Positions 33,430 to 48,833 of a DNA stretch of 64,000 nucleotides are shown here, piece by piece. Where the stretch lies: positions 678,662 through 742,661 of the forward strand of contig NZ_JAMCCO010000001.1 in NCBI RefSeq assembly GCF_023371205.1, read 5' to 3'. The position numbers and the translations under genes were made by a program. The DNA is from Parvivirga hydrogeniphila. GTDB lineage: Bacteria; Actinomycetota; Coriobacteriia; Anaerosomatales; Anaerosomataceae. Under the pieces are notes generated by a model that made no database searches, was not told where the DNA came from, and saw only the letters and a list, made by a program, of their open reading frames with translations. Within the stretch, counting starts at the first letter, position 1; each line of letters opens with the position of its first letter.

Positions 33430-33471
33430 CGACGGACGACGGGAATCCGCATGGACAGGAGCGTGAGAACG

Positions 33472-35019
33472 ATGGCTGACAGGGTCTACATTTTCGACAC
33501 CACGCTGCGCGACGGGGAGCAGTCCCCCGGCGCGAGCATGAACACGGAAGAGAAGCTGGAGATCGCGCGCCAGCTGGTGCGCCTGGGCGTGGACGTCATC
33601 GAGGCGGGCTTCCCGATCTCGAGCCCCGGCGACTTCGAGAGCGTGCGGCGCATCGGCGCCGAGGTCGGCGACGCCGTGGTGGTGTGCGGGCTTTCGCGCG
33701 CGATCGCGAAAGACATCGAGGTCGCGGCAGAGGCGCTGGCGACCGCCAAGCGACCTCGCATCCACACGGGCATCGGCGTGAGCGAAAGCCACCTGCGCGA
33801 CAAGCTCCGCATCACGCGCGAAGAAGCGCTCGAGCGTGCCGTAGCGGCGGTCAAGCTCGCGAGAAGCTTCGTCGACGACGTCGAGTTCTACGCCGAGGAC
33901 GCCGGCAGGGCGGAGCCGGAGTTCCTGTACCGGATGGTGGAGGCGGCCATCAAGGCCGGCGCGACCGTCGTGAATATCCCCGACACCACGGGCTACGCCT
34001 ACCCGGAGGTCTTCGGCGAGCTCATCCGGGGGCTCATGGAGCACGTCGAGGGCATCGAGGACGTCATCGTCTCGGTGCACTGCCACAACGATCTCGGCAT
34101 GGCGACGGCCAATGCTCTCGCGGGCGTGCGCGCGGGCGCCAGGCAGGTCGAGTGCACCATCAACGGCATCGGCGAGCGGGCGGGCAACACCGCGCTCGAA
34201 GAGGTCGTGATGGCGCTCAAGCAGCGTCGCGACGTCTTCGGCGTGGAGACCGGTATCAACACGCGCGAGATCATGCGCACCTCGCGCCTGGTGTCCTCAA
34301 TCACCGGCATCCGCGTCCAGCCGAACAAGGCCATCGTGGGCGCTAACGCCTTCGCACACTCGTCCGGCATCCATCAAGACGGCGTGCTCAAGGAGCGCAC
34401 GACCTACGAGATCATCGATCCTGCCGAGGTGGGCGCTGGCGCTTCCCGCATCGTGCTCACGGCGCGCTCGGGCCGCCACGCGCTCAGGCACCGGCTGGAG
34501 GAGCTCGGCTTCGAGCTCAGAGACGACGAGTTCGAGCGGGTCTACCAGGCGTTTCTCGAGGTGGCGGACAAGAAGAAGGAGGTCTACGACGAGGACCTCG
34601 AAGCGATCGTCGGCGAGAGCGAGCGCACGCTCGACGAGACCTACCACCTGCAGCAGGTGCACGTGAGCTGCGGCGAGCCGGGCATCCCGACCGCCACCGT
34701 CGAGCTCGTCGCGCGCGACGGGCGCCACCTCATCGACTCCAGCCACGGCAACGGTCCGGTGGACGCCGTCTACAACGCGATCAGCCGCATCGTGCAGGTG
34801 CCGAACGACCTCACGGAGTTCTCGGTGCAGTCGGTCACGCGCGGCATCGACGCGATCGGCGAGGTCACGATCCGCGTGCGGGCCGAAGACGGCCAGGTGT
34901 TCACCGGCCGCGGTGCGCACCCGGACATCATCGTGGCGTCGGCCAAGGCGTACACCAACGCGCTCAACCGGCTGCTGGCCGCGCAGTCGCAGAAGAGGAC
35001 CGTCGAAGAGGAGCTGTAA
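33472..35019 (+). CDS. leuA: 2-isopropylmalate synthase
   Basis: 515 residues. The DRE-TIM barrel begins [16 protein letters not shown] and contains [23 protein letters not shown]; metal ligands are in [13 protein letters not shown]. After an accessory domain ([14 protein letters not shown]) comes the LeuA allosteric dimer domain ([16 protein letters not shown] and onwards). It condenses acetyl-CoA with 2-oxoisovalerate. The ATG at 33472 fits the family N-terminus and has AGGAG upstream; an ATG at 33451 would add seven residues. It is controlled by the leader at 33347-33429. Confidence 0.96.
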
Positions 35020-35025
35020 GCGCGC

Positions 35026-35445
35026 TCACGGCAGCTTCTGGACGACCTCCAGGAACGCTGCAGGCGGAAGGACGCGCACCAGGGCTCCGGCAAGGTCGAT
35101 GAGGTGGTGGTCGCCGCTGACGAGCACGTGGGCGGCGGCCGCTTCGGCCAGCGCGATGAGGTAGTCGTCATCGGGGTCCGGGGAGACGTGCGCGACGCGC
35201 TCGGGGTCCGGGAAGAGCACGCAGATCCGGCGCAGCCAGTCGACGTAGGCGGCGGCGGTCCCGGGCTCGACGCGGCACGCGATGCGCGGCCTGGCGGGCA
35301 CCCGGGCAAGCTCGTCCAGCAGGGCCGGGCACGCGACGAAGTCGAAGCGTCCGTCGTGCAAGGCGCGCACGATCGCGGCAGGGGCGCCGTCGCGCGCGAG
35401 CAGCGCGGCGACGAGCACGTTCGTGTCGAGAACGGCGCGGATCAC
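35026..35445 (-). CDS. PIN-domain toxin (COG1569-type), second copy
   Basis: 139 residues. Motifs: MIRAVLDTNVLVAALLARDG, the glutamate in LLDELARV, and the aspartates in SPDPDDDYLIALAEAAAAHVLVSGD. It matches the PIN toxin at 9765 in length and layout but is paired with a different antitoxin type. Its start overlaps the antitoxin stop by four bases (minus strand), so the two are co-translated. It lies between leuA and leuC, on the opposite strand. RNA target unknown. Confidence 0.88.
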   Translation of the reverse strand: MIRAVLDTNVLVAALLARDGAPAAIVRALHDGRFDFVACPALLDELARVPARPRIACRVEPGTAAAYVDWLRRICVLFPDPERVAHVSPDPDDDYLIALAEAAAAHVLVSGDHHLIDLAGALVRVLPPAAFLEVVQKLP

Positions 35446-35672
35446 CGCTTCGCGCGGCGCTCTGCGTGCGTCTCGGCGACCGCAAGCGCGAGCGCTTCAT
35501 CGGGGGCCATGTCGGCCGAGCGCCATGCGTTCTCGAGCGCCGACACGCCCAGGTACTCGCGGAGCGCTTCTTCGACGACTTCGTAGTCGCGTTTCCCAAG
35601 GCGAGCGGCGTAGATGCGGGCGCTGCGCAGCACGTCCTCGTCGAGGTAGATGGTTGTCTTGGTCTTTGCCAC
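35442..35672 (-). CDS. Ribbon-helix-helix antitoxin
   Basis: 76 residues. TKTTIYLDEDVLRSARIYAARLGKRDYEVVEEALREYL is a ribbon-helix-helix DNA-binding domain (CopG/VapB-like); the rest is an acidic helical tail that should bind the PIN toxin. It begins with GTG at 35672. The -10 element ends seven bases before that codon on the minus strand, so the mRNA is probably leaderless. Confidence 0.87.
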   Translation of the reverse strand: MAKTKTTIYLDEDVLRSARIYAARLGKRDYEVVEEALREYLGVSALENAWRSADMAPDEALALAVAETHAERRAKR

Positions 35673-35678
35673 GCGTGC

Positions 35679-35707
35679 AGAATACCATCATGACGGCAAG
35701 ATGGCAA
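35679..35707 (-). promoter_or_regulatory. Promoter and operator of the RHH/PIN pair
   Basis: On the minus strand: -35 TTGCCA (35707-35702), 17-base spacer, -10 TATTCT (35684-35679). The inverted repeat CCATC/GATGG (35685-35689 and 35700-35704) fills the spacer. The predicted transcription start coincides with the GTG start codon at 35672. Confidence 0.65.
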
Positions 35708-35726
35708 GACGCGACCGCCTGCGCCG

Positions 35727-35755
35727 TTCCGGAGCGGGTCCGAATCGCGTACAAT
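35727..35755 (+). promoter_or_regulatory. Promoter of leuC
   Basis: -35 TTCCGG (35727-35732, weak), 17-base spacer, -10 TACAAT (35750-35755), about 45 bases of leader, then AGGAGAG before the ATG at 35806. Confidence 0.5.
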
Positions 35756-35805
35756 ACGCAGACCTCCATCCGGACCGTTTCGACGCGCGATAGGAGAGTC
35801 CGCCG

Positions 35806-37074
<1,269 letters not shown>

Positions 37075-37097
37075 GAAGCGGAGGGGGCGAGGGGCGC

Positions 37098-38864
37098 ATG
37101 GCGAGCTACAAGCGCGCGGGCGGAGCCGCCGCTCGGAGAGGGTCGCCTGACCCTCGCGCGCTCGCGCTCGTCGGGGCGTGCCTCGCGGGGCTGGCGCTCT
37201 CGGTTGTGGGGCGCTCTGCAGCCTCTGCCGTCGATGCCGCCGCGATCGCTACCGGCGTCGCTGGAGCCATTGGGGCGCTCGTGCTTGTGGCGCGGACCGA
37301 AGCGGAGCCGCGACTGCCACTGGGCGTCGTCGCTCCGCTGCTCGCATTCCTCGGCTGGTCGTTCGCGTGCGCTGTCGCATCCGGTCGCGGTCTGTCTGCG
37401 TTCATGGGCGAGCCGACCAACCTTCTCGGCTGGCTCGCGCTCGCCGCGCTTCTGTCTGTCGCTCTTGCGGCCGCCGCGTTGTCCGACGAGGTCGCGCGCT
37501 TGCTCGGCGTCGTCGCTCCTGCCGTCCTTGCGCTCGAGCTGGCCTTCGCCTTCTCGCAGGTGCTGACCCGGCAGCCCGTCCGAGGCACGCTTCCGAACTC
37601 GACCTACCTCGGCGAGCTCGTGGTGCTGCTGCTCCCCTTCGTGGCGCTGAGGCCGGAGGTGGTGCCGCCGCGGGCAGCGGACCTCCTCGCCCTCGGCGGC
37701 GTGGCGGTGCTCGCTGCAGGCGGGTCGCGCGTTGCTGCGCTCGCCGCAGGCGTGTGGCTTATCGTCGAGCACGTGCCGCGGCTCGCGAGGTCTGTTCGCG
37801 AGCGGGTGCTGTACGCTCTCGGCGCTGTCGCTTCAGCCGTTGCGGGCGCGCTTCTGTTCGCGCGCGAGGAGGTCTTCGGCTCGTTCTCGCCCGAAGCGTG
37901 GGGCGAGCGGCCGCTCATGTGGAGCGACGCGTGGCGCGCGACGCTCGCGCGCCCCGTGCTCGGCTTCGGTCCGGACGGGTTCGTGGCAGGCGGCGCGTCC
38001 GTCTCGACGGTCGAGCGGATGCAGCACGGGCCGGTGCTCGTCTACCGGCTGTACGGCGCGGTCGACCCGCACAGCGCGATCGCGTGGATCGCCGTCTCGA
38101 CGGGGCTCGTCGGCCTTGCGCTGACGGTGTGGTCGGGCGTGGAAGTCGTGCGTGCGTGGCGCGCCGCACCGCTTCCCGCGCACCGCCGCGCCGCCGTCTG
38201 GGCCGTGTGCATGGTGGCGGCCGTTCTGCTCACGGCTCCGCTGGTCATGCAGGTCGCGCCCGTGCTCGCGCTCGTCGCGGGCGTGTCGCTTCCACGGCCA
38301 CCTGCATCGCGCGCGGGCCTCGGACGTCGGGCGTGGGCGTCGCTGCTCGCGGCCCTGTGCCTGGCCTCGGCAGCGTTCGCGGCCGGTGCTCTGGTGCGGC
38401 TGCCGTTCGAGGCGCCGGATCAGGTACGGTCTCCGCGCGTCGCAGCCGCAGCGGCACGGGCCGCCGCGCTCGTGCGCGCAGACCCGTACCTGTGGTACCT
38501 CGCCTCGCAGCACCTCGGGTGGGGGATGCGCGCGGGCACGGTATCTGCCGCCGAGAGACCCGACCTTGCCGCAGCCATGCGGGCGAGCGAGCTCGACCGC
38601 AGAAGCCCCTTCTACGCGCTCGAAGCGGCGCGGACGCTCGTCTTCTACGACGCGCCGGCGTCTGACGTCGACGCAGCGTACGCGGAGGTCTTCCGGCGCT
38701 GGCCCGCGTTCCCGCTCGCGCACGCCGAGCGCGCGCGCTACCTCGCGAGCACGGGGCGCGTCCAGGAGGCGGTGCGCGAGGCGGCCGTCGCGCGCGCATT
38801 CGAAGGCGATGACCCGGAAGTGGCCGCTGCGCTCCGCGCAGTTGAAGAAATCTTAAAGAACTGA
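37098..38864 (+). CDS. O-antigen-ligase-like membrane protein with C-terminal TPR-like region
   Basis: 588 residues. About ten membrane helices fill residues 20-430. The Wzy_C/O-antigen-ligase loop is ARPVLGFGPDGFVAGG, then VYRLYGAVDPHSAIAWIAVSTGLVGLA, where the PHS-type motif is kept. The C-terminal part (about 450-588) is soluble, Ala/Arg-rich and helical with TPR-like pairs (AERARYLASTGRVQEAVREAAVAR). Such proteins are known as O-antigen ligases or protein O-oligosaccharyltransferases. Placed before cell-surface cytochrome genes, it may attach glycans to exported proteins, but this is inference. The ATG at 37098 has GGGGCGAGGGG upstream. Confidence 0.82.
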   Translation: MASYKRAGGAAARRGSPDPRALALVGACLAGLALSVVGRSAASAVDAAAIATGVAGAIGALVLVARTEAEPRLPLGVVAPLLAFLGWSFACAVASGRGLSAFMGEPTNLLGWLALAALLSVALAAAALSDEVARLLGVVAPAVLALELAFAFSQVLTRQPVRGTLPNSTYLGELVVLLLPFVALRPEVVPPRAADLLALGGVAVLAAGGSRVAALAAGVWLIVEHVPRLARSVRERVLYALGAVASAVAGALLFAREEVFGSFSPEAWGERPLMWSDAWRATLARPVLGFGPDGFVAGGASVSTVERMQHGPVLVYRLYGAVDPHSAIAWIAVSTGLVGLALTVWSGVEVVRAWRAAPLPAHRRAAVWAVCMVAAVLLTAPLVMQVAPVLALVAGVSLPRPPASRAGLGRRAWASLLAALCLASAAFAAGALVRLPFEAPDQVRSPRVAAAAARAAALVRADPYLWYLASQHLGWGMRAGTVSAAERPDLAAAMRASELDRRSPFYALEAARTLVFYDAPASDVDAAYAEVFRRWPAFPLAHAERARYLASTGRVQEAVREAAVARAFEGDDPEVAAALRAVEEILKN

Positions 38865-38896
38865 CCTTCCCGGCTGGATTCCGGTACGCGGTTTGC

Positions 38897-38902
38897 TACA
38901 CT
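38897..38902 (+). promoter_or_regulatory. -10 element before the TPR/NHL genes
   Basis: TACACT in TTTGCTACACTTG, 28 bases before the ATG at 38931, which has GAAAGGAG. No clear -35 is seen. Confidence 0.4.
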
Positions 38903-38930
38903 TGCGGTCGCTTGCCCGAAAGGAGACCGG

Positions 38931-39677
38931 ATGGCTCGATCGCGTCGCGCTGGCATCGACAGCCTCGAACGTTTGAAGCGAACGAACAGGCGGCTCGTGG
39001 TGGCGATGCTCATCACCGTCATCGGCGTGCTGCTCGTCATCGCGTGGGTGCTCGCCACGAACTTCCCGGGCCGGCAGACCCCGCGGACGTTCGAGGAGCG
39101 GCAGATCGCCATGCTCGAGACGGTCGTCAAGCAGAAACCGCAGTCCGAAAAGGCATGGGCCGACTACGTCCTCGCGCTCGTTGCCGCCAAGCAGTACTCG
39201 AAAGCCGATCAGGTCATCCGCCAAGCAGAGAAGGCCGTCGGCCCGAACGTGGTCGACATCTTGTACGTCAAGGCGCGGCTCGCGGCCGCTCGCGGTGACG
39301 CGGACGAGGCGCTCGCGCTTGTGGACAAGGCCATCAAGGCCGGCCTCGAGTTCCGGAAGAAGGAGCTCGAACGGTTGGCGGAACAGGGCACTTTCCCCGA
39401 TCCGAGGGTCATCAAAGGCCCGATCCTCGCCTCCGCGTACTACTTCCAGGCGCAACTGTACGCAGACGAGAAGAAGTGGCCAGAGGCCGCTGAGGCGCTC
39501 AGCAAGGCGCTCGACGAGGAGCCGACGTCCGCAGACGCTCTCGTGCTGCGCGGGACCGTGTACCTGAAGATGAGCGAGGTGGAGTCTGCGACCGCCGACT
39601 TCAAGCAGGCGTTGAAGTTCATCCCTGGCTACCAGCCGGCCCTCGATGGGTTGAAGGAAGCGGAGGCTGCCAAGTGA
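38931..39677 (+). CDS. Membrane-anchored TPR protein
   Basis: 248 residues with one N-terminal membrane helix (about 22-43, VVAMLITVIGVLLVIAWVLA) after a basic segment, so the body faces outward. TPR-type helix pairs run from about 60 to the end (SEKAWADYVLALVAAKQYSKADQVIRQAEKAV, VVDILYVKARLAAARGDADEALALVDKAI, ASAYYFQAQLYADEKKWPEAAEALSKALDEEPTSADALVLRGTVYLKMSEVESATADFKQAL). It probably scaffolds an extracytoplasmic complex. Its stop overlaps the start of the NHL gene (39674), so the two products are likely partners. Confidence 0.85.
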   Translation: MARSRRAGIDSLERLKRTNRRLVVAMLITVIGVLLVIAWVLATNFPGRQTPRTFEERQIAMLETVVKQKPQSEKAWADYVLALVAAKQYSKADQVIRQAEKAVGPNVVDILYVKARLAAARGDADEALALVDKAIKAGLEFRKKELERLAEQGTFPDPRVIKGPILASAYYFQAQLYADEKKWPEAAEALSKALDEEPTSADALVLRGTVYLKMSEVESATADFKQALKFIPGYQPALDGLKEAEAAK

Positions 39678-40912
39678 CGACACCTGAGTTCGACGGATCC
39701 GACGAGCAGGCGCCCGGGCTCACGGACGCTGAACGCGACGAGCGCGAGTACGAGCGCGCACGGCGGACGCGGCTGCTCTTGTCGGTCGGACTCGTTGTGC
39801 TGTTCGTGCTCCTGCTGACGGTCCTGGCGTTCGTCGCTCGGATCGTGACGCCCGTGGGCAAGCCGAATGCAGACGAGCTCCCGGAGGGCCTCACCTGGGT
39901 GCGGTCGATCTACGGCTGGGGAAACACCGAGGACACGCAGCTGTACGGCCCGTCGGACGTGGGCGTCGGCCCTGACGGTACCATCTGGGTGTCCGACTCG
40001 TCCCGGTTCCAGATCGTGGGGTTCACGCCGACCGGTGCGCTCAAGGCGATTCTCTCCCAGGGCAACGGGGCGATGTTCCCACAGTCGTTCGACGTCGCCG
40101 AGAACGGCGAGCTGTACGTCTGCGACTTCGCGCACGACCGCATCGTCGTGCTCACGCCGGACAACAAGGTGGTCCGCCAGTGGAAGGTCCAGTTGCCGAT
40201 GGAGATCGCCGTTCGCGGCGACCGGGTCGTCGTCGGCTCGCGGGCGGGCATCGCCGTGTACGACCGCCAGGGCAACGTCATCTCCTACTGGGGCCAGCGC
40301 GGCAGCGGACCTGATGACTTCGACGTGGTGCGCGGCATCGCCATCGGACCGGACGGGACGATCTACCTCTCGGACACGCAGAACGCGCGTCTGAAGGCGT
40401 ACTCGGAGAAAGGCGAGCTCAAGTGGGTCTACCCGAGCCCCGAGGAGATGAAGCGTTTCAAGAAGAACGCCAGTCTCGAGGAAACCGAGGCGGCGAAGGC
40501 GCCGTTCCAGATACCGGCGGGGATGACTTTCGATGGAGCGGGCCGGCTGCTCGTCGTCGACCCGTTCGAGTTCGCGATCATGAGCATCGACACCGCGAAC
40601 GGGCACGTCCTCGCGCGCTGGGGCGAGTTCGGCGAGCGTGACGGGTACTTCGGGTATCCGACCTCGATCGACTACGACCCAGCGCGGGACTGGTTCGTGG
40701 TCGCCGACACCGCGAACAACAGGGTGCAGATCGTCCGGTTGCCCGGAAGCGGCGGCGGAGTGGCCGCGGCCGTGCGCAGAGCGTGGGGCGGCCCGCTGTG
40801 GGCCTGCTACGGACCGCTCGTCCTGCTGCTGCTCGCCATCATCGTCGCTGCGACCAGCAGGCGGCGCACTCGGCGCGCCGCGTCGGGATCAGAGGCAGGC
40901 GAGGCAGAATGA
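39674..40912 (+). CDS. Membrane-anchored NHL-repeat beta-propeller protein
   Basis: 412 residues. An N-terminal cytoplasmic segment rich in charge, a membrane helix (about 33-57), then NHL/six-bladed propeller repeats (LYGPSDVGVGPDGTIWVSDSSRFQIVGF, FPQSFDVAENGELYVCDFAHDRIVVL, FDVVRGIAIGPDGTIYLSDTQNARLKAY, YPTSIDYDPARDWFVVADTANNRVQIV). A second membrane helix (about 377-395) leaves a basic tail. The propeller is therefore held outside between two anchors. NHL proteins commonly accompany multihaem cytochromes in anaerobes. The GTG at 39674 overlaps the TPR gene stop. Confidence 0.86.
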   Translation: MTTPEFDGSDEQAPGLTDAERDEREYERARRTRLLLSVGLVVLFVLLLTVLAFVARIVTPVGKPNADELPEGLTWVRSIYGWGNTEDTQLYGPSDVGVGPDGTIWVSDSSRFQIVGFTPTGALKAILSQGNGAMFPQSFDVAENGELYVCDFAHDRIVVLTPDNKVVRQWKVQLPMEIAVRGDRVVVGSRAGIAVYDRQGNVISYWGQRGSGPDDFDVVRGIAIGPDGTIYLSDTQNARLKAYSEKGELKWVYPSPEEMKRFKKNASLEETEAAKAPFQIPAGMTFDGAGRLLVVDPFEFAIMSIDTANGHVLARWGEFGERDGYFGYPTSIDYDPARDWFVVADTANNRVQIVRLPGSGGGVAAAVRRAWGGPLWACYGPLVLLLLAIIVAATSRRRTRRAASGSEAGEAE

Positions 40913-40936
40913 ACGCGCAAGAGAGCAGATTCCCTC

Positions 40937-40965
40937 TTGTGCTCAATCGAACAAGCGCCGATAAT
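40937..40965 (+). promoter_or_regulatory. Promoter of the cytochrome genes
   Basis: -35 TTGTGC (40937-40942), 17-base spacer, -10 GATAAT (40960-40965), then a leader of about 65 bases with AAGGAGGTGG (41017-41026). One of the better sigma-70-type promoters in the window, consistent with high expression of a secreted cytochrome. Confidence 0.65.
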
Positions 40966-41036
40966 GTGAGCATGGATGCTCCGCGTTGTTAAGACGCGTG
41001 CAGGATTCTTAAGCGAAAGGAGGTGGAACGGTACCC

Positions 41037-42176
41037 ATGAAAACCAATGCTACGGAGAGGGGAAATGCTATGGCTCGCAAATCGCTCTTCATCACGGCAA
41101 TCGTTGCGGTGATGGTGCTCGGCTTCGCCGTGTCGGCGTACGCTATCGGCCCCGTGTACATTACCTGGAACGCCGGTGGCGCCAACGCCGGTACGGGCGG
41201 CCCGCACCAGGACTATCGGCTCACCACCGAGAAGTGTGCGGTGTGCCACTCGGTGCACGCTGCGGCGGTCTCCAACGCGGCGGCTGGTGAATTCGGTCCA
41301 GATCCGATTGGCGCCGCTGAGACCCAGCTGTTGCTGCGTTCGTCTGTCGCTGATGCGTGCACCTACTGCCACATCACCACGAACGTCTCGGGCCTGCAGA
41401 TCTACAACGGCGTCGCGTCGAACTACACGACCGACGATCAGTACGGCCACAACGGCTCGACGTCGGCCGAGTGCGCTGACTGCCACGCCGTGCACGGCGC
41501 TGACACCTTCAAGGGCTTCATCGCCGGCAAGATCCTGAAGGCGCAAGGCAACCTCGTCAGCAACGTCAGCGGCGGTGTCCAGACCGAGGCTGCTGCGACG
41601 CTGAACACGCTCGTCAGTGGTGGCACCGTCTTCACGGCGCCGGCTGCGAGCGACGGCGACTACCAGGTCACCGCGTTCTGCACGCGCTGCCACAAGACGT
41701 TCTCGGACGCCTCCGAGACCACGATCACGGCCGGGGGGTACTTCGAGGAGTGGGACGGCAGCGTCACGTTCGGTTCGCGCTCCTACAAGAACCACCCGCT
41801 GAAGGCTGCCGAGGCCACGTTCGTCGCCAGCGGTGCGAACTACAGCGGCCGGGTGGCCTGGGCTGATGCGTACACCTGCCGCTCGTGCCACGCGGCCGGT
41901 AACAACCGCGTGTCGACCTCCTATGGCGGACCGGGCGGTCTCGTGTCCTGGTCGTTCCCGCACTGGACGAACGGCAACGCGCAGTTCCTGGTGTCCGGCT
42001 GGGGCGTCAGCGACGCCAACATCGGCCTTGGCACGTCCGGTGCCAACACGGGCAAGCCTTCCGGCTCTCACACCGTCATGGACGGCGCCGAGGACGGCGT
42101 GTGCCTGCGCTGCCACACCAACGGCTCGAGCGGCCCGCCGAACAACGCGACGGCCGGCGTGAACGTGACCTTCTAG
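41037..42176 (+). CDS. Secreted six-haem c-type cytochrome
   Basis: 379 residues (368 if started at the ATG at 41070). A signal peptide ends near SAYA (residue 36). Six CXXCH sites lie at 67-71, 108-112, 146-150, 215-219, 281-285 and 356-360. The first and third read CAVCHSVH and CADCHAVH. Seven further histidines (57, 74, 138, 153, 253, 309, 345) are enough to give every haem a distal His ligand. The rest is rich in Gly, Asn, Ser, Thr and Ala with no anchor or sorting motif, so it is probably released or assembled outside. The haem number equals that of filament-forming OmcS, but homology was not testable here. Both starts have good ribosome binding sites; 41037 has AGGAGGTGG. Confidence 0.9.
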   Translation: MKTNATERGNAMARKSLFITAIVAVMVLGFAVSAYAIGPVYITWNAGGANAGTGGPHQDYRLTTEKCAVCHSVHAAAVSNAAAGEFGPDPIGAAETQLLLRSSVADACTYCHITTNVSGLQIYNGVASNYTTDDQYGHNGSTSAECADCHAVHGADTFKGFIAGKILKAQGNLVSNVSGGVQTEAAATLNTLVSGGTVFTAPAASDGDYQVTAFCTRCHKTFSDASETTITAGGYFEEWDGSVTFGSRSYKNHPLKAAEATFVASGANYSGRVAWADAYTCRSCHAAGNNRVSTSYGGPGGLVSWSFPHWTNGNAQFLVSGWGVSDANIGLGTSGANTGKPSGSHTVMDGAEDGVCLRCHTNGSSGPPNNATAGVNVTF

Positions 42177-42291
42177 TCGCGTGACACGCATCCGTCCGTA
42201 GACGGATCGGAACGGACGGGCGGGACCTGGGGTATCCTGGGTCTCGCCCGCCGCTCATGTCTCGGCGTTCTTTCCACGAGGTGCTGACACA

Positions 42292-43305
42292 GTGCGTTCC
42301 TCTCTGTCCGACATCGCGCACGACTCGCGGGGCCCCCACGCGCGCAGGCGCGTGCAGGTGGCAGGCGCCCTCGTTGCCGTGGTCGCTGCGGTCCTCGTCA
42401 TCATCGGCGCTGGCTCGACGAACGCGGCGTGCCGCACCTGCCACGGCACGACGAGCGCAGCGGACGTCCCTGAGGCCCACGCCCGCGCCTCGTGCTACGC
42501 CTGTCACCTGCGCGACGGGGTCTGGAGCTGGCCGGGATCCAAGGTCCGCGAGATCTTCGTGATGTATCCGAAGGCCATCGCTGGCAAGCGGCCGTCGTCG
42601 GCGGGCGATCCCGTTTCGCGTGGCGCGTGCCTGCGCTGCCACGAGCAGGTCATGCGCCGCACGTCAGAGTCGAAGGGGCTCCGCATCTCGCACGCCGATT
42701 GCGCGCAGGGGCGCACCTGCGGTGCGTGCCACGCACGCGCCGCGCACGGCGAGAAGGTGCGGTGGGCGGGGCAGCCGGTGATGGAGGAGTGCGTCTCCTG
42801 CCACAAGCAGGCGGGCGCTCCGGCGGCGTGCGACGCCTGCCACTCCGAGAGAAGCGAGCGCGAACGGCTCGCGCGAGGGCCCTGGCAGGTGACCCACGGC
42901 CCTGGCTGGGAGCGCACGCACGGGATGGGGACGCTCGAGTGGTGCTCGACGTGCCATCCGGCCGGGTACTGCGCCCGGTGCCACGGTGTCGACCTGCCGC
43001 ACCCCGCAGACTTCGGTCGCACGCACGGCGCCTTCGCGAAACGGCCGGACGCGAAGTGCCTCACCTGCCACGACGCGACGACGCTCTGCGACTCGTGCCA
43101 CGGCGTCGAGATGCCGCACCCGAAGGGGTTCTTGGCCTCGCACTCGAAGGTGGCCGCATCCGCGAGCGACCCGAAGTGCTTGTCGTGCCACTTCCAGAAG
43201 GACTGCACCGCGTGTCACACGCTGCACATCCACCCCGGCTCCACCAACGGCACGGCCCGACTGCCCCGGCCCGGTGAGATCGGACTGGAGGGGGGCACGC
43301 CGTGA
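42292..43305 (+). CDS. Twelve-haem c-type cytochrome with N-terminal anchor
   Basis: 337 residues. An uncleaved or cleaved signal helix is at about 20-45, then twelve CXXCH sites (47, 68, 113, 143, 167, 180, 218, 227, 256, 266, 296 and 305 are the first cysteines). Two copies of a C..CHGVxxPHPxxFxxxH module are seen (CARCHGVDLPHPADFGRTH at 227 and CDSCHGVEMPHPKGFLASH at 266). The opening CRTCH..CYACH resembles NapC/NirT-type electron input. It probably passes electrons between the membrane and the outside. The GTG at 42292 has GAGGTG upstream; its stop overlaps the next start (GTGA). Confidence 0.9.
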   Translation: MRSSLSDIAHDSRGPHARRRVQVAGALVAVVAAVLVIIGAGSTNAACRTCHGTTSAADVPEAHARASCYACHLRDGVWSWPGSKVREIFVMYPKAIAGKRPSSAGDPVSRGACLRCHEQVMRRTSESKGLRISHADCAQGRTCGACHARAAHGEKVRWAGQPVMEECVSCHKQAGAPAACDACHSERSERERLARGPWQVTHGPGWERTHGMGTLEWCSTCHPAGYCARCHGVDLPHPADFGRTHGAFAKRPDAKCLTCHDATTLCDSCHGVEMPHPKGFLASHSKVAASASDPKCLSCHFQKDCTACHTLHIHPGSTNGTARLPRPGEIGLEGGTP

Positions 43306-44465
43306 GCGGGCCTGCAGAGACGCTTCACCGCGCGCTTCAGGCGATCCAAGAGGTCATCGCGGCGCCGATGGCGAACCTCGGCGCTGCCATGCTCTTGCTC
43401 GCAGCGCTCGCGCTGCTCTTGCTGATCGTCGTGACTGTGCTCGCGCTGCTGGTCCTGCCGTCGCCCAAGCCGCCGCGCGCCACGCGCTCGCGCACGACGG
43501 CGGCACGAACGGCGCGCGGCCCACAGAAGCGCGTGGTCTCTGGCGCTGGCATCATCGTCGCGCTTTTGGTTCTGGCGGCGCTGGTGGGCGGGTACGTCGG
43601 GACCTCGACGGACGACTACTGCGTGTCGTGCCACGCCGAGCAGTCGCTCACGCAAGCGCAGCCGGCGACCGGCTCGGCAGACGCGACGGCGAGCGCCGGT
43701 CTTGTCCACGCAGGCGTGCGGTGCGTCGCGTGTCACGAGGACCGTCTGCCGCTCGGGCTCGTCGACAACGTCTCTCAGCGGCTCCGGTGGGCGATCAAGG
43801 GCTTCGCGGGCGGGGATCCGAAGTCCGCCGATGCGAGCGTTCCGACTCGACGGTGCCTCGCGTGCCACCGCGCGATCCTTGCGCGGACAACGGAGTCCAC
43901 CGCCACCGGCGTGGCGATGTCCCACAAGGAGCCGGTGGCCGCCGGTGCCCCGTGCACGGACTGCCACAAGAACGCGGGCCACTCGGCAGGAGCGCAAGGC
44001 GTGTCGATGAACACGTGCCTCGCGTGCCACGATGGAACGACGGCCTCAGCCGACTGCGCCGTCTGCCACAAGAAGGACACCGCGTTCGCGGCACGCCAGC
44101 GTCGCACCTTCGCGCTCGTCCACCTGCCGCCGGTCACAGACTGCGGCGGCTGCCACGACCAGAAGGTCTGCGACGCGTGCCATGGGCTCAGGATGCCGCA
44201 CCCGCAGGCGTTCGTGGACGGCGGGCACGCGCGGTACGCCGGCTTCGAGAAGAAGATCCTGTGCTGGCGCTGCCACCAGTACACCGAGTGCGGCAAGTGC
44301 CACCAGGTCAAGCCGCCTGGCACGGGCGCGTGGGGGCACGGCACCGGTACCTGGTGGCGGTACGAACACGGCAGGGTGACGCCCAAGGGCGCGCAGGCCG
44401 GCTGCGGCTGCCACGTGAGAAGCCCGTACGCGCGAGCAGGGAACTACTGCAAGGCGTGCCACTGA
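43302..44465 (+). CDS. Membrane-bound eleven-haem NapC-like cytochrome
   Basis: 387 residues. Two membrane helices (about 25-53 and 82-100) flank a basic cytoplasmic loop. Eleven CXXCH sites follow, with first cysteines at 107, 141, 185, 218, 239, 252, 281, 290, 321, 330 and 383, the last forming the C-terminus CKACH. One shortened site CGCH lies at 368-371. The module CDACHGLRMPHPQAFVDGGH (290) is shared with the upstream cytochrome. The membrane anchor and the CVSCH..CVACHEDRLP start suit quinol oxidation. The GTG at 43302 overlaps the previous stop. It and the twelve-haem protein are likely a unit. Confidence 0.9.
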   Translation: MSGPAETLHRALQAIQEVIAAPMANLGAAMLLLAALALLLLIVVTVLALLVLPSPKPPRATRSRTTAARTARGPQKRVVSGAGIIVALLVLAALVGGYVGTSTDDYCVSCHAEQSLTQAQPATGSADATASAGLVHAGVRCVACHEDRLPLGLVDNVSQRLRWAIKGFAGGDPKSADASVPTRRCLACHRAILARTTESTATGVAMSHKEPVAAGAPCTDCHKNAGHSAGAQGVSMNTCLACHDGTTASADCAVCHKKDTAFAARQRRTFALVHLPPVTDCGGCHDQKVCDACHGLRMPHPQAFVDGGHARYAGFEKKILCWRCHQYTECGKCHQVKPPGTGAWGHGTGTWWRYEHGRVTPKGAQAGCGCHVRSPYARAGNYCKACH

Positions 44466-44500
44466 GGCGCCCGAGGGGGGGCCGCGCCGCTGCGCTGTGG

Positions 44501-44506
44501 TAGAAT
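44501..44506 (+). promoter_or_regulatory. -10 element before leuD
   Basis: TAGAAT, 51 bases before the leuD ATG and 36 bases after the cytochrome stop. No clear -35. It would allow leuD-leuB to be expressed apart from the cytochromes. Confidence 0.4.
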
Positions 44507-44556
44507 CCGTGCACCGCTTGCGCGTCTGCCCGGCGCCGTGCACCCAGGAGGACCTC

Positions 44557-45054
44557 ATGCGATTCGAAGGCATCGCTCACCGCTACGGCCGCGACATCGA
44601 CACCGACGTCATCATCCCGGCCCGGTACCTCAACACGAGCGACCCGGACGAACTGGCGGCGCACTGCATGGAAGACCTCGACCCGTCGTTCGTCTCGAAG
44701 GTGCAGCCAGGCGACATCCTCGTGGCGGAGGAGAACTTCGGCTGCGGTTCGTCGCGCGAGCACGCGCCGATCGCGATCAAGCACGCAGGCGTGGCGGCGG
44801 TCATCGCCAAGAGCTTCGCGCGCATCTTCTACCGCAACGCCATCAACACCGGGCTGCCCATCCTCGAGTCGCCTGAAGCGGTCGACGGCATCCGCTCAGG
44901 GGACCGCGTCGCCATCGACGCGGACGCCGGCGTCATCACGAACCTCACCACCGGCCAGTCCTGGCAGGCGCAGCCATTCCCGCCGTTCATCCGCGAGATC
45001 ATCGAGCGCGGCGGGCTCGTCGCGTACGCGCGCGAGAAGGTGAGCGGGCGATGA
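44557..45054 (+). CDS. leuD: 3-isopropylmalate dehydratase, small subunit (set 2)
   Basis: 165 residues. [45 protein letters not shown] and [18 protein letters not shown] are the swivel-domain signatures of true LeuD ([10 protein letters not shown] against GMGSSREQAP in set 1). It partners LeuC at 35806. The ATG at 44557 has CAGGAGG. The stop overlaps the leuB start (ATGA). Confidence 0.95.
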
Positions 45055-46166
45055 CCCCCACTTACCGCATCTGCCTGCTCCCGGGCGACGGCATCGGGCC
45101 GGAGATCACGGTTGAGGCCGTCAAGGCGCTCGAAGCGATCGGGCGGCGGTTCGGCGCGCGGTTCGAGTTCCGCGAAGCGCTGCTCGGCGGCGCTGCCATC
45201 GACGCCACCGGCACGGCGCTTCCCGACGAGACGCTCGCGGCTGCGCGTGCGGCAGACGCGGTGCTCCTCGCGGCGATCGGCGGGCCGAAGTGGGACTCCA
45301 CCGACCCTGACGCGCCCCGGCCCGAGCAGGGGCTTCTCGGCATCCGCAAAGGGCTCGGGCTGTACGCGAACCTGCGTCCGGTGCGCATCTTCGACGCGCT
45401 CGTCGGCGCGAGCACGCTCAAGCCCGAAGCGCTTGCCGGCGTCGACATGCTCATCGTGCGCGAGCTCACCGGCGGGCTGTACTTCGGCCCGCGGGCGCGC
45501 GAGCGGGACGTGGAGGGCGCGGGCGCAGGCGGCGTGCGCGGCATGCGGGCGTACGACACCTGCGTGTACACGGAGTTCGAGGTCGAGCGCATCGCGCGCA
45601 AAGCGTTCGAGGCGGCGCGCGCCCGGCGAGGACGGGTGCACTCCGTGGACAAGGCGAACGTGCTCGAGTCGAGCCGCCTGTGGCGCGAGGTCGTGCACCG
45701 CGTGCACGACGCTGAGTACCCGGACGTCGAGCTCATCGACCAGCTGGTCGACAACACCGCCATGCAGCTCGTCCGCTACCCGGCGCAGTTCGACGTCGTC
45801 CTCACGGAGAACATGTTCGGCGACATCCTCTCGGACGAGGCGAGCATGCTCACCGGCTCGCTCGGGATGCTCGCGAGCGCGTCGTTAGGCGACGGCACGG
45901 CGCTCTATGAGCCGAGCCACGGAAGCGCACCGGACATCGCCGGCCAGGGCGTGGCGAATCCGCTCGCGATGCTGCTTTCGGTGGAGCTGATGCTCCGGTA
46001 CTCGTTCGCGATGCACGAGGCCGCCGACGCGCTCGCCGGCGCGATCGAGGCAGTGCTCGCGGACGGCTGGCGCACCCGCGACATCGCAGGCCCTGACACG
46101 CTGCCGCAGCGCACGGTTGGCACGAGCGCGATGGGCGATCTTGTGGTCGAACGGCTGGAAGGGTAG
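45051..46166 (+). CDS. leuB: 3-isopropylmalate dehydrogenase
   Basis: 371 residues. [34 protein letters not shown] (the IPMDH substrate loop), [46 protein letters not shown] and [20 protein letters not shown] identify LeuB. It oxidises and decarboxylates 3-isopropylmalate and, with CimA, probably 3-methylmalate on the way to isoleucine. The ATG overlaps the leuD stop. Confidence 0.97.
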
Positions 46167-46332: not shown

Positions 46333-47250
46333 ATGGCCGGTCTGCCGAAAGTCGACTACATCTGGATGGACGGCGAGCTCGTCGAGTGGGACAAGGCCAC
46401 CGTACACGTCCTCACGCATGCCCTTCACTACGGCTCCGGCGTCTTCGAGGGCATCCGCTGCTACGCGACAGCAGACGGTCCCGCCATCTTCCGCCTGCGT
46501 GACCACATGGAGCGCTTCGAGCGCTCGGCGCGCATGATCATGATGGACCTCGCGGTGAGCGTCGATGACCTCTGCGAGGCCGTGAAAGAGACCGTCCGCG
46601 CGAACAACCTGCCCGAGTGCTACATCCGCCCGATCGCGTTCCGCGGGTACGGCGTGATGGGGCTCGACCCGATCCCCGCGCCCGTGCAGATCGTCATCGC
46701 TGCGTGGCCGTGGGCGACGTACATGGGCGAAGAGGCGCTCACGCGCGGCGTGGACGTCGGCATCTCGTCGTGGCGCCAGCGCGGCATCAACTCGCTTCCG
46801 CCCGCTGTCAAAGCCACCGGCAACTACCTCAACTCGTCGCTCGCGCGCATCGAGGCGAACCGGCACGGGTACAACGAGGCCATCCTGCTCAACGAGGAGG
46901 GCAAGGTCTGCGAGGGAACGGGCGAGAACATCTTCATCGTGCGAGACGGCGTCATCTCGACCCCGCCCGTCTCGGACGGCATCCTCGAGGGCATCACGCG
47001 CGACTCCATCATGGTCATCGCGGACGAGCTGGGCTACCCGGTCATCGAGGAGTCGCTCGTGCGCACCGACCTGTATGCGGCCGACGAGGTCTTCATGACC
47101 GGGACGGCGGCCGAAGTGGTGCCGGTGCGCTCGGTGGACGGCAGGCTGATCGGCGATGCCGGCCCTGTGACCCTCGAGCTCCAGAAGACGTTCTTCCGCG
47201 TCGTGCACGGTGAGGAGCCGGCGTACGAGGAGTGGCTGGACCGGGTCTGA
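46333..47250 (+). CDS. ilvE: Branched-chain amino acid aminotransferase
   Basis: 305 residues of the class IV PLP fold. HALHYGSGVFEGIRCY, the PLP lysine in LPPAVKATGNYLNSSLARIEA, EAILLNEEGKVCEGTGENIFIV and DGILEGITRDSIM mark IlvE. It makes valine, leucine and isoleucine from the keto acids with glutamate. The stop TGA overlaps the cimA ATG (TGATG), linking the last step to the citramalate route. Confidence 0.96.
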   Translation: MAGLPKVDYIWMDGELVEWDKATVHVLTHALHYGSGVFEGIRCYATADGPAIFRLRDHMERFERSARMIMMDLAVSVDDLCEAVKETVRANNLPECYIRPIAFRGYGVMGLDPIPAPVQIVIAAWPWATYMGEEALTRGVDVGISSWRQRGINSLPPAVKATGNYLNSSLARIEANRHGYNEAILLNEEGKVCEGTGENIFIVRDGVISTPPVSDGILEGITRDSIMVIADELGYPVIEESLVRTDLYAADEVFMTGTAAEVVPVRSVDGRLIGDAGPVTLELQKTFFRVVHGEEPAYEEWLDRV

Positions 47251-48833
47251 TGGTCGTCCTGTACGACACGACGCTCCGTGACGGGACGCAGCGCGAAGGC
47301 ATGTCGCTGTCGGTCGAGGACAAGCTGCGCATCGCGCAGCGGCTCGACGACCTCGGCATCCGCTACATCGAAGGCGGCTTTCCTGGCAGCAACCCGAAGG
47401 ACATGGAGTTCTTCGAGCGCGCACGGAACCTGACGCTCGAGAACGCGACGATCGTGGCGTTCGGCGCCACGTGCCGCAAGGACCTCGCGCCGGAGCGGGA
47501 CGCCGGCCTGCAGGCCCTGCTCGAGACGGGCTGCGACGCCGTGTGCATCTTCGGCAAGGCCTGGGACGTGCACGTCACCGAGACGCTCAAGGCCACGCTC
47601 GAAGAGAACGTGCGGATGGTGCGGGACAGCGTCGCGTTCCTCAAGTCGCACGGCAAGACGGTGTTCTTCGACGCGGAGCACTTCTTCGACGGATACCGGC
47701 ACAATGCCGGCTACGCGATCGAGGTGTGCCGTGCCGCCGCCGAGGCCGGCGCCGACGCGGTGGTGCTGTGCGACACCAACGGAGGGACGCTGCCCCAGGC
47801 CGTGCATCGCATCGTGCTCACGGTGGCGGGAGAGGTCGACGTCCCGCTCGGCATCCACGCACACAACGACGGCGGGTGCGCCGTGGCGAACTCGCTTCTC
47901 GCCGTCGATGCCGGCTGCACGCACGTGCAGGGCACCATGAACGGCTACGGCGAGCGCGCCGGCAACGCCGACCTGACGGCCATCATACCGGCGCTCAAGC
48001 TCAAGATGGGCATCGACTGCGTCACCGACGAGCAGCTGCGTCTGCTCACCGAGGTCTCGCACTTCGTCGCGGAGACCGCCAACATCTCGCCGAACCCGCA
48101 CCAACCGTACGTCGGGTCGAGCGCGTTCGCGCACAAAGGCGGCGTGCACGCGTCTGCGGCGGCGCGCCTGCCGGAGGCGTACGAGCACGTCGATCCTGCG
48201 CTCGTCGGCAACATGGCCCGCGTGGTGGTGAGCGAGCTCGCCGGCCGTGCCTCGCTCGTGCTCAAAGCGCACGAGATGGGCATCACGCTTTCTGTGGACG
48301 ACCCTGCCACGAGCGAGATGCTCGAGCAGATAAAACGCCTCGAGCACAAGGGCTACACCTTCGAGGCCGCCGATGCGTCGCTGGAGATCATGCTGCGCAA
48401 GGCGCTCGGGACCTACGAGCCGTTCTTCCGGCTGGAGTCGTTCCGCGTGATCATGGAGAAGCGCGAGGACGGCAGGGTGATGACCGAGGCGACCATCAAG
48501 ATCCACGTCGGCGGCCACCGCTTCATCGCCACCGCGGAAGGCAACGGCCCGGTGAACGCGCTCGACAAGGCGTTGCGCATCGCCATCGGCCGGTTCTATC
48601 CAGCGCTTCAGGCCATCGAGCTCACGGACTTCAAGGTGCGCGTGCTCGACGAGAAGAAGGGCACGGCGGCGGTCACGCGCGTGCTCATCGAGTCCAGCGA
48701 CGGCGAGAAGAGCTGGGGCACGGTGGGCGTCTCGGAGAACATCATCGAGGCGTCGTGGGAAGCGCTCGTCGCCGCCGTGGACTACGGTCTCTCGCACCCC
48801 AGGCAGGAAAGCGAGCCTCCTGAGCGAACGTGA
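47250..48833 (+). CDS. cimA: (R)-citramalate synthase
   Basis: 527 residues. YDTTLRDGTQREGMSLSVEDKLRIAQRLDDLGIRYIEGGFPGSNPKDMEFF is the CimA form of the DRE-TIM signature (GTQREG and EGGxPGSNPKD, against GEQSPG in LeuA). HAHNDGGCAVANSLLAVDAGC holds the metal ligands, and a LeuA-type regulatory domain ends the protein. It condenses acetyl-CoA and pyruvate to citramalate, which gives 2-oxobutyrate for isoleucine without threonine. No ilvA is in the window. The start is the ATG overlapping the ilvE stop. Confidence 0.95.
   Translation: MVVLYDTTLRDGTQREGMSLSVEDKLRIAQRLDDLGIRYIEGGFPGSNPKDMEFFERARNLTLENATIVAFGATCRKDLAPERDAGLQALLETGCDAVCIFGKAWDVHVTETLKATLEENVRMVRDSVAFLKSHGKTVFFDAEHFFDGYRHNAGYAIEVCRAAAEAGADAVVLCDTNGGTLPQAVHRIVLTVAGEVDVPLGIHAHNDGGCAVANSLLAVDAGCTHVQGTMNGYGERAGNADLTAIIPALKLKMGIDCVTDEQLRLLTEVSHFVAETANISPNPHQPYVGSSAFAHKGGVHASAAARLPEAYEHVDPALVGNMARVVVSELAGRASLVLKAHEMGITLSVDDPATSEMLEQIKRLEHKGYTFEAADASLEIMLRKALGTYEPFFRLESFRVIMEKREDGRVMTEATIKIHVGGHRFIATAEGNGPVNALDKALRIAIGRFYPALQAIELTDFKVRVLDEKKGTAAVTRVLIESSDGEKSWGTVGVSENIIEASWEALVAAVDYGLSHPRQESEPPERT

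Follow-up and report, generated by a model that had tools for sequence, protein, structure and literature searches.

The gene at positions 41037–42176 (plus strand) of the 64,000-nucleotide stretch of Parvivirga hydrogeniphila DNA analysed here (the window) encodes a secreted six-haem cytochrome of 379 residues. On balance we favour reading this protein as a hexahaem of the OmcS/OmcE superfamily that forms the outward end of a three-cytochrome conduit and is probably polymeric. The two functional parts of this reading differ in strength: the conduit role is likely, and held with good confidence, and polymerisation stands at somewhat better than even.

The open reading frame is taken as real because it combines a good ribosome site (AAAGGAGGT, 41016–41024, plus strand) with a signal peptide and six CXXCH motifs, against 0.013 expected by chance from the composition of the protein. 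The only hydrophobic stretch, residues 16–34, is followed by AYA|IG; the protein has a signal peptide (residues 1–36; 41037–41144, plus strand) and no anchor, as the earlier note had described. The motifs start at residues 67, 108, 146, 215, 281 and 356, which bears out the count of exactly six, and the body is rich in Gly, Thr, Ser and Asn as had been claimed (13, 10, 9 and 6%, with Ala at 14%). Pfam gave generic haem-domain matches only, and AlphaFold models built without haem had a pLDDT of 35 for the full protein and 34 for a compact relative, too low to serve as structures. Upstream lies a candidate promoter, TTGTGC-N16-GATAAT (40938–40965, plus strand), matching the consensus at 8 of 12 positions. 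It had been called strong, a label that lacks support, as a consensus promoter scan of the region around the gene found none; a real promoter is nevertheless likely, since two loci of congeners (L004 and L005) have exactly the same two hexamers ahead of their six-haem gene. An Rfam search over the locus returned no match.

Conservation of the haem ligands was scored in an alignment of 31 non-redundant relatives from the Coriobacteriia. Every CXXCH cysteine and histidine is kept in this alignment, a few relatives (L010, L011, L040 and L054) having variant spacing at one motif. Seven histidines of the protein lie outside these motifs (57, 74, 138, 153, 253, 309 and 345), and all seven had been proposed as distal ligands. 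Exactly six are conserved, namely 57, 74, 138 (30 of 31), 153, 253 and 309, and the proposal stands for these; His345 is not conserved among the 31 relatives. The distal histidines alternate with the motifs in the order d-C1-d-C2-d-C3-d-C4-d-C5-d-C6, so arranged that the family would have one conserved distal histidine per haem, as expected of an all-bis-His hexahaem.

Along the plus strand, distal His57 (41205–41207) belongs to a PHxxY motif and is invariant in all 31 relatives. It precedes the haem 1 site, CAVCH (residues 67–71), which with His74, three residues after the haem 1 proximal histidine, spans 41235–41258 and aligns with OmcS C9–H13 and H16. The haem 2 site is CTYCH (residues 108–112; 41358–41372). 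Distal His138 (in GHN), the haem 3 site CADCH (residues 146–150) and distal His153 together occupy 41448–41495, followed by the haem 4 site CTRCH (residues 215–219; 41679–41693) and by distal His253 (41793–41795) in an NHP motif comparable to RHP at 257 of OmcS. Between the haem 5 site, CRSCH (residues 281–285; 41877–41891), and the haem 6 site, CLRCH (residues 356–360; 42102–42116), lies distal His309 (FPH; 41961–41963), which is also invariant in the seven-haem family described below.

The earlier note had linked the protein to OmcS through its haem number and widely spaced haems, which are weak arguments, as many unrelated cytochromes share both. Searched directly against the PDB, the six-haem protein found no filament protein, and a profile of 13 six-haem family sequences gave neither a significant match to OmcS nor any filament protein. 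In local tests, for which the OmcS sequence was verified against 6ef8, 48 of 150 shuffles equalled or exceeded the real inter-motif similarity in a motif-anchored profile comparison (not significant), and hhalign against OmcS alone gave a local probability of 10% and a global alignment out of register. These results, the unmatched family profile and the chance-level similarity between motifs, are those expected if the protein were an unrelated hexahaem resembling OmcS in shared CXXCH composition only.

Because OmcS and OmcE themselves share little beyond their haem ligands (PMC9473688), a bridge family was sought. Other genomes of the same order encode a secreted seven-haem family (Coriobacteriia) that fills this place: the six-haem profile matches it from end to end, its motifs co-linear (91.7 bits, ~5e-25 at PDB size), and other multihaem ORFs at these loci, with 8–12 haems, gave less than 8 bits or no match. 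For a single bridge protein, from the congener EMTCatB1, the best PDB match was OmcS (6.4e-6), with haems 2, 3 and 4 aligned. With a profile of seven bridge sequences, OmcS (7.2e-6) and OmcE (0.0025) ranked first and second among 177,635 PDB sequences. When 13 six-haem and 5 seven-haem sequences were combined in one profile, OmcS again came first, at 2.4e-9, in one stretch covering OmcS residues 8–252, that is, haems 1–4. Within it, His74 and His153 of the six-haem protein are in register with His16 and His147 of OmcS; the GHN and HP motifs fall in corresponding segments, but their residues are not aligned one to one. Haems 5–6 were unaligned with OmcS in this match.

Other CXXCH proteins do appear lower in the combined list, led by a reaction-centre cytochrome (3.5e-5) and a 6r2q chain (1e-4), as a purely compositional likeness would allow. 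Against that explanation, OmcS is ahead of the next match by four orders of magnitude with four haems in register, and the bridge profile clearly matches only OmcS and OmcE despite the many multihaem proteins in the PDB. We consider an unrelated hexahaem improbable. Membership of the OmcS/OmcE superfamily, with a core of four haems in common, is supported at the level of sequence by transitive homology; of the proposed relation to OmcS, the co-linearity of haems 1–4 stands and a direct match does not. Orthology to OmcS was rejected, given the unaligned haems 5–6 and the lack of a direct match. Orthology to a soluble respiratory enzyme, which the earlier note had named as an outcome that would refute a filament subunit, was not found.

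OmcS of Geobacter sulfurreducens (PDB 6EF8/6NEF) resembles the six-haem protein in having six haems, all expected to be bis-His, a histidine at +3 of the haem 1 proximal histidine, GHN before haem 3 and HP after haem 4; it differs in coming from a diderm host, the six-haem protein being that of a Gram-positive one. His74 stands in the place of OmcS His16, which we take to be the histidine donated to haem 5 of the adjacent subunit. Haem stacking in OmcS follows the order of the motifs; each chain supplies 11 of its 12 axial histidines, and the last, on haem 5, is contributed by a neighbour (PMC6584659). His74 may similarly act as a ligand across a subunit interface. OmcE (G. sulfurreducens, PDB 7TFS) has four haems, which superimpose on haems 1–4 of OmcS (PMC9473688), the part aligned here; its match is reached through the bridge family only, the combined profile giving 0.067.

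The six-haem gene lies in a plus-strand series in the order Wzy_C, TPR, NHL, six-haem, 12-haem and 11-haem. The first gene encodes a Wzy_C/O-antigen-ligase-like membrane protein (37098–38864; the frame opens at 36897 inside leuC, and the start at 37098 was taken to avoid that overlap), possibly an O-glycosyl transferase, and is found next to the six-haem locus in the same genus only. It is followed by a TPR protein with an N-terminal transmembrane segment (38931–39677) and an NHL β-propeller protein with a transmembrane segment near each end (39674–40912). Downstream of the six-haem gene are those of a 12-haem cytochrome whose single hydrophobic segment is N-terminal (42292–43305) and, overlapping it by 4 nt, an 11-haem cytochrome (43302–44465) that has two transmembrane segments and resembles NapC/NirT in its first haem region.

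In 25 of 30 surveyed loci, 29 of them from other genomes, the NHL gene is directly upstream of or adjoins the six-haem gene; the 12- and 11-haem genes adjoin it in 21 loci, at times in the other orientation. As the association persists through rearrangement, the six-haem, NHL, 12-haem and 11-haem genes are read as a working unit. No catalytic subunit was found in the conserved neighbourhood, which holds just electron-transfer cytochromes and the NHL and TPR proteins. Of 296 genomes sampled from the class, 77 have a match to the family profile, weaker paralogues counted, and most of these belong to the same order. The surroundings of omcS differ, with no NHL gene listed among GSU2501–2507; the idea of an NHL gene beside omcS was discarded, GSU2505 being given as hypothetical and GSU2506–2507 as regulators (PMC10599522). 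Within window positions 33451–46166, the cytochrome module is flanked by a plus-strand run of leucine biosynthesis genes, with leuA (33451) and leuC (35806) before it and leuD-like (44497) and leuB-like (45051) genes after it; a second LeuA-like gene lies at 47232–48833. At three loci (L012, L069 and L070) copies of the six-haem gene lie side by side, and the ORFs of L069 and L070 are far longer (541–608 aa), the extra length lying mostly in the loops that separate the same six motifs.

In the proposed path, electrons would enter the 11-haem membrane protein at its NapC-like head and pass through the 12-haem protein to the six-haem protein, copies of which would stack end to end, their haems forming a chain that crosses the wall and probably extends past it. 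Assembly or anchoring is the probable role of the NHL propeller and TPR proteins. Flow could run outward, in Fe(III) reduction, or inward. In P. hydrogeniphila a cluster, MCL4078710–12, has been described as two putative quinol-oxidising multihaem proteins and an MtrA homologue (PMC9686372); it is probably the same six-, 12- and 11-haem trio, judging from the identical strain and the three adjacent multihaem genes, and its authors drew no link to OmcS or filaments (PMC9686372). No quinones were detected in this strain (PMC9686372), which weakens the quinol step of the path.

The protein might instead be a short-range carrier in the wall zone, supplying a soluble reductase of thiosulfate, sulfur or nitrite with no solid-surface role. 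The generic Pfam matches are compatible with such a carrier, as is Anaerosoma tenue, which shows neither Fe(III) reduction nor growth on it, respires thiosulfate and sulfur, and probably carries a family member beside the same neighbours (NHL and 12-haem genes, L053). The conserved neighbourhood, lacking a catalytic subunit, speaks against it, and the family's order is rich in members associated with Fe(III) or electrodes (PMC7399161, PMC7943316), so that we judge this carrier highly improbable and retain the conduit.

The closest counterpart to the conduit by description is CwcA (Tfer_0075) of Thermincola ferriacetica. For this hexahaem, which has 18% identity to OmcS, stacking through the peptidoglycan between membrane and soluble cytochromes and the cell surface has been proposed. 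The arrangement found here is of the same type: in a host with a Gram-positive wall, a secreted hexahaem is encoded next to multihaem partners of the membrane and soluble kinds. CwcA is likewise a six-haem protein of a Gram-positive host, modelled on OmcS as a wall-crossing polymer, and its partners ImdcA and PdcA are membrane and soluble cytochromes, as are the 11-haem membrane protein and the 12-haem protein here. It differs in belonging to another phylum and in its partners having 10 haems each, against 11 and 12.

Polymerisation of the six-haem protein into a filament, which the earlier note had suggested, is the less firm part of the reading. The protein could work within the same conduit, and belong to the same fold family, as a wall or surface cytochrome that does not polymerise, one or a few copies relaying electrons in the wall or serving as a terminal reductase that contacts the mineral. 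In L071, L073 and L013 the six-haem module is a single C-terminal domain of large propeller/Ig-like surface proteins; for these a free homopolymer is unexpected, which suggests that the module can also work outside a homopolymer. The neighbouring gene copies in L012, L069 and L070 point the same way, and P. hydrogeniphila cells are closely attached to ferrihydrite particles (PMC9686372), so reach over micrometres may be unneeded. The probable occurrence of a family member with its NHL and 12-haem neighbours in A. tenue, a species that does not reduce Fe(III), also counts against a wire. Weighing against a non-polymerising protein, the nearest solved relatives, OmcS and OmcE (first and second with the bridge profile), both form filaments; the invariant N-terminal PHxxY and CxxCHxxH fit a ligand donated across an interface; and a wall 20–80 nm thick requires several subunits end to end (PMC7911101). 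We consider the non-polymerising form somewhat unlikely and prefer the stacked one. The fused modules could possibly be wire caps or stand-alone surface cytochromes. A further locus, L072, was grouped with these fusions, as carrying a six-haem (or five-CXXCH) C-terminal module.

P. hydrogeniphila Es71-Z0120 is a Gram-positive thermophile that depends obligately on Fe(III) and uses hydrogen or formate for growth (PMC9686372). It forms pili-like appendages only with ferrihydrite, these being absent on soluble Fe(III)-citrate, a pattern in keeping with the favoured reading; the fibres are reported to be 0.8–0.9 nm wide (PMC9686372). The genome has type IV pilus ATPases, and type IV pili could account for the fibres. 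OmcS-type wires are 3–4 nm wide, and the fibres are too thin for a wire of this type. It is a tentative and rather doubtful proposal that the Anaerosomatales have a distinct lineage of wall-crossing nanowires, assembled by NHL and TPR proteins, with the fused versions as caps or sockets, and that these wires are the ferrihydrite-induced Parvivirga fibres.

In the congener EMTCatB1, transcripts of five multihaem genes, 1d0125 included, fell within the top 10% on an active biocathode (PMC7943316). Its locus tags appear to be numbered per strand: on the plus strand the V-ATPase genes (1d0031–37) lie at 29 kb, and on the minus strand the hydrogenase genes (1c0059–61) lie at 410 kb. By gene count the six-haem gene is about number 127 of the plus strand, and no multihaem ORFs other than the trio occur in the first 160 kb. 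Counted in this way, 1d0125 would be one of the trio and most likely the six-haem gene, which favours the proposed conduit. Electron uptake by EMTCatB1 on biocathodes might be explained by the six-, 12- and 11-haem genes.

To our knowledge, solved cytochrome wires come from the diderm Geobacter and from archaea; a Gram-positive wire has been proposed (CwcA) and not yet seen. With a cultured thermophile, fibres formed only on solid iron and an order-wide gene set, OmcS-type wall crossing in a monoderm becomes directly testable. From Coriobacteriales S27 of a Rifle anode biofilm, in the same class as Parvivirga, a protein with 28% identity was reported in 2020 to be a true homologue of OmcS that keeps the full set of six CXXCH motifs (PMC7399161); it may belong either to the present family or to the seven-haem bridge family. 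An OmcS homologue is therefore already known in this class (PMC7399161), and the six-haem gene adds a member in an unusually testable host.

Further multihaem genes were observed elsewhere in the genome. A seven-haem paralogue (L074:903–2603, minus strand; about 279.9–281.6 kb of C2), with orthologues in L077, L078 and L079, contains an in-frame TGA whose position and flanking residues (QPRH*ARQ) are shared by the four genomes. Just 3′ of the TGA lies a hairpin with a 7-bp stem and compensating pair changes, and the genome encodes tRNA-Sec. The paralogue is probably a selenocysteine-containing multihaem cytochrome; it had no match in the PDB and is thus not close to the solved MccSep. The selenocysteine candidate also has an NHL gene upstream, and a second pair of 12-haem and 10-haem genes lies nearby (L074:5018–7226, minus strand), making up a paralogous module. 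In both congeners, a NiFeSe-type hydrogenase large subunit also has one in-frame TGA (G000:C1:961896–963395, L068; G003:C1:409573–411072, L067). At L075 (G000:C2, about 119.7–127.9 kb and beyond), an open frame of 4696 aa has at least 61 CXXCH motifs in the 3791 aa covered, and C2 also encodes 33-haem (1323 aa) and 14-haem (491 aa) ORFs (L074).
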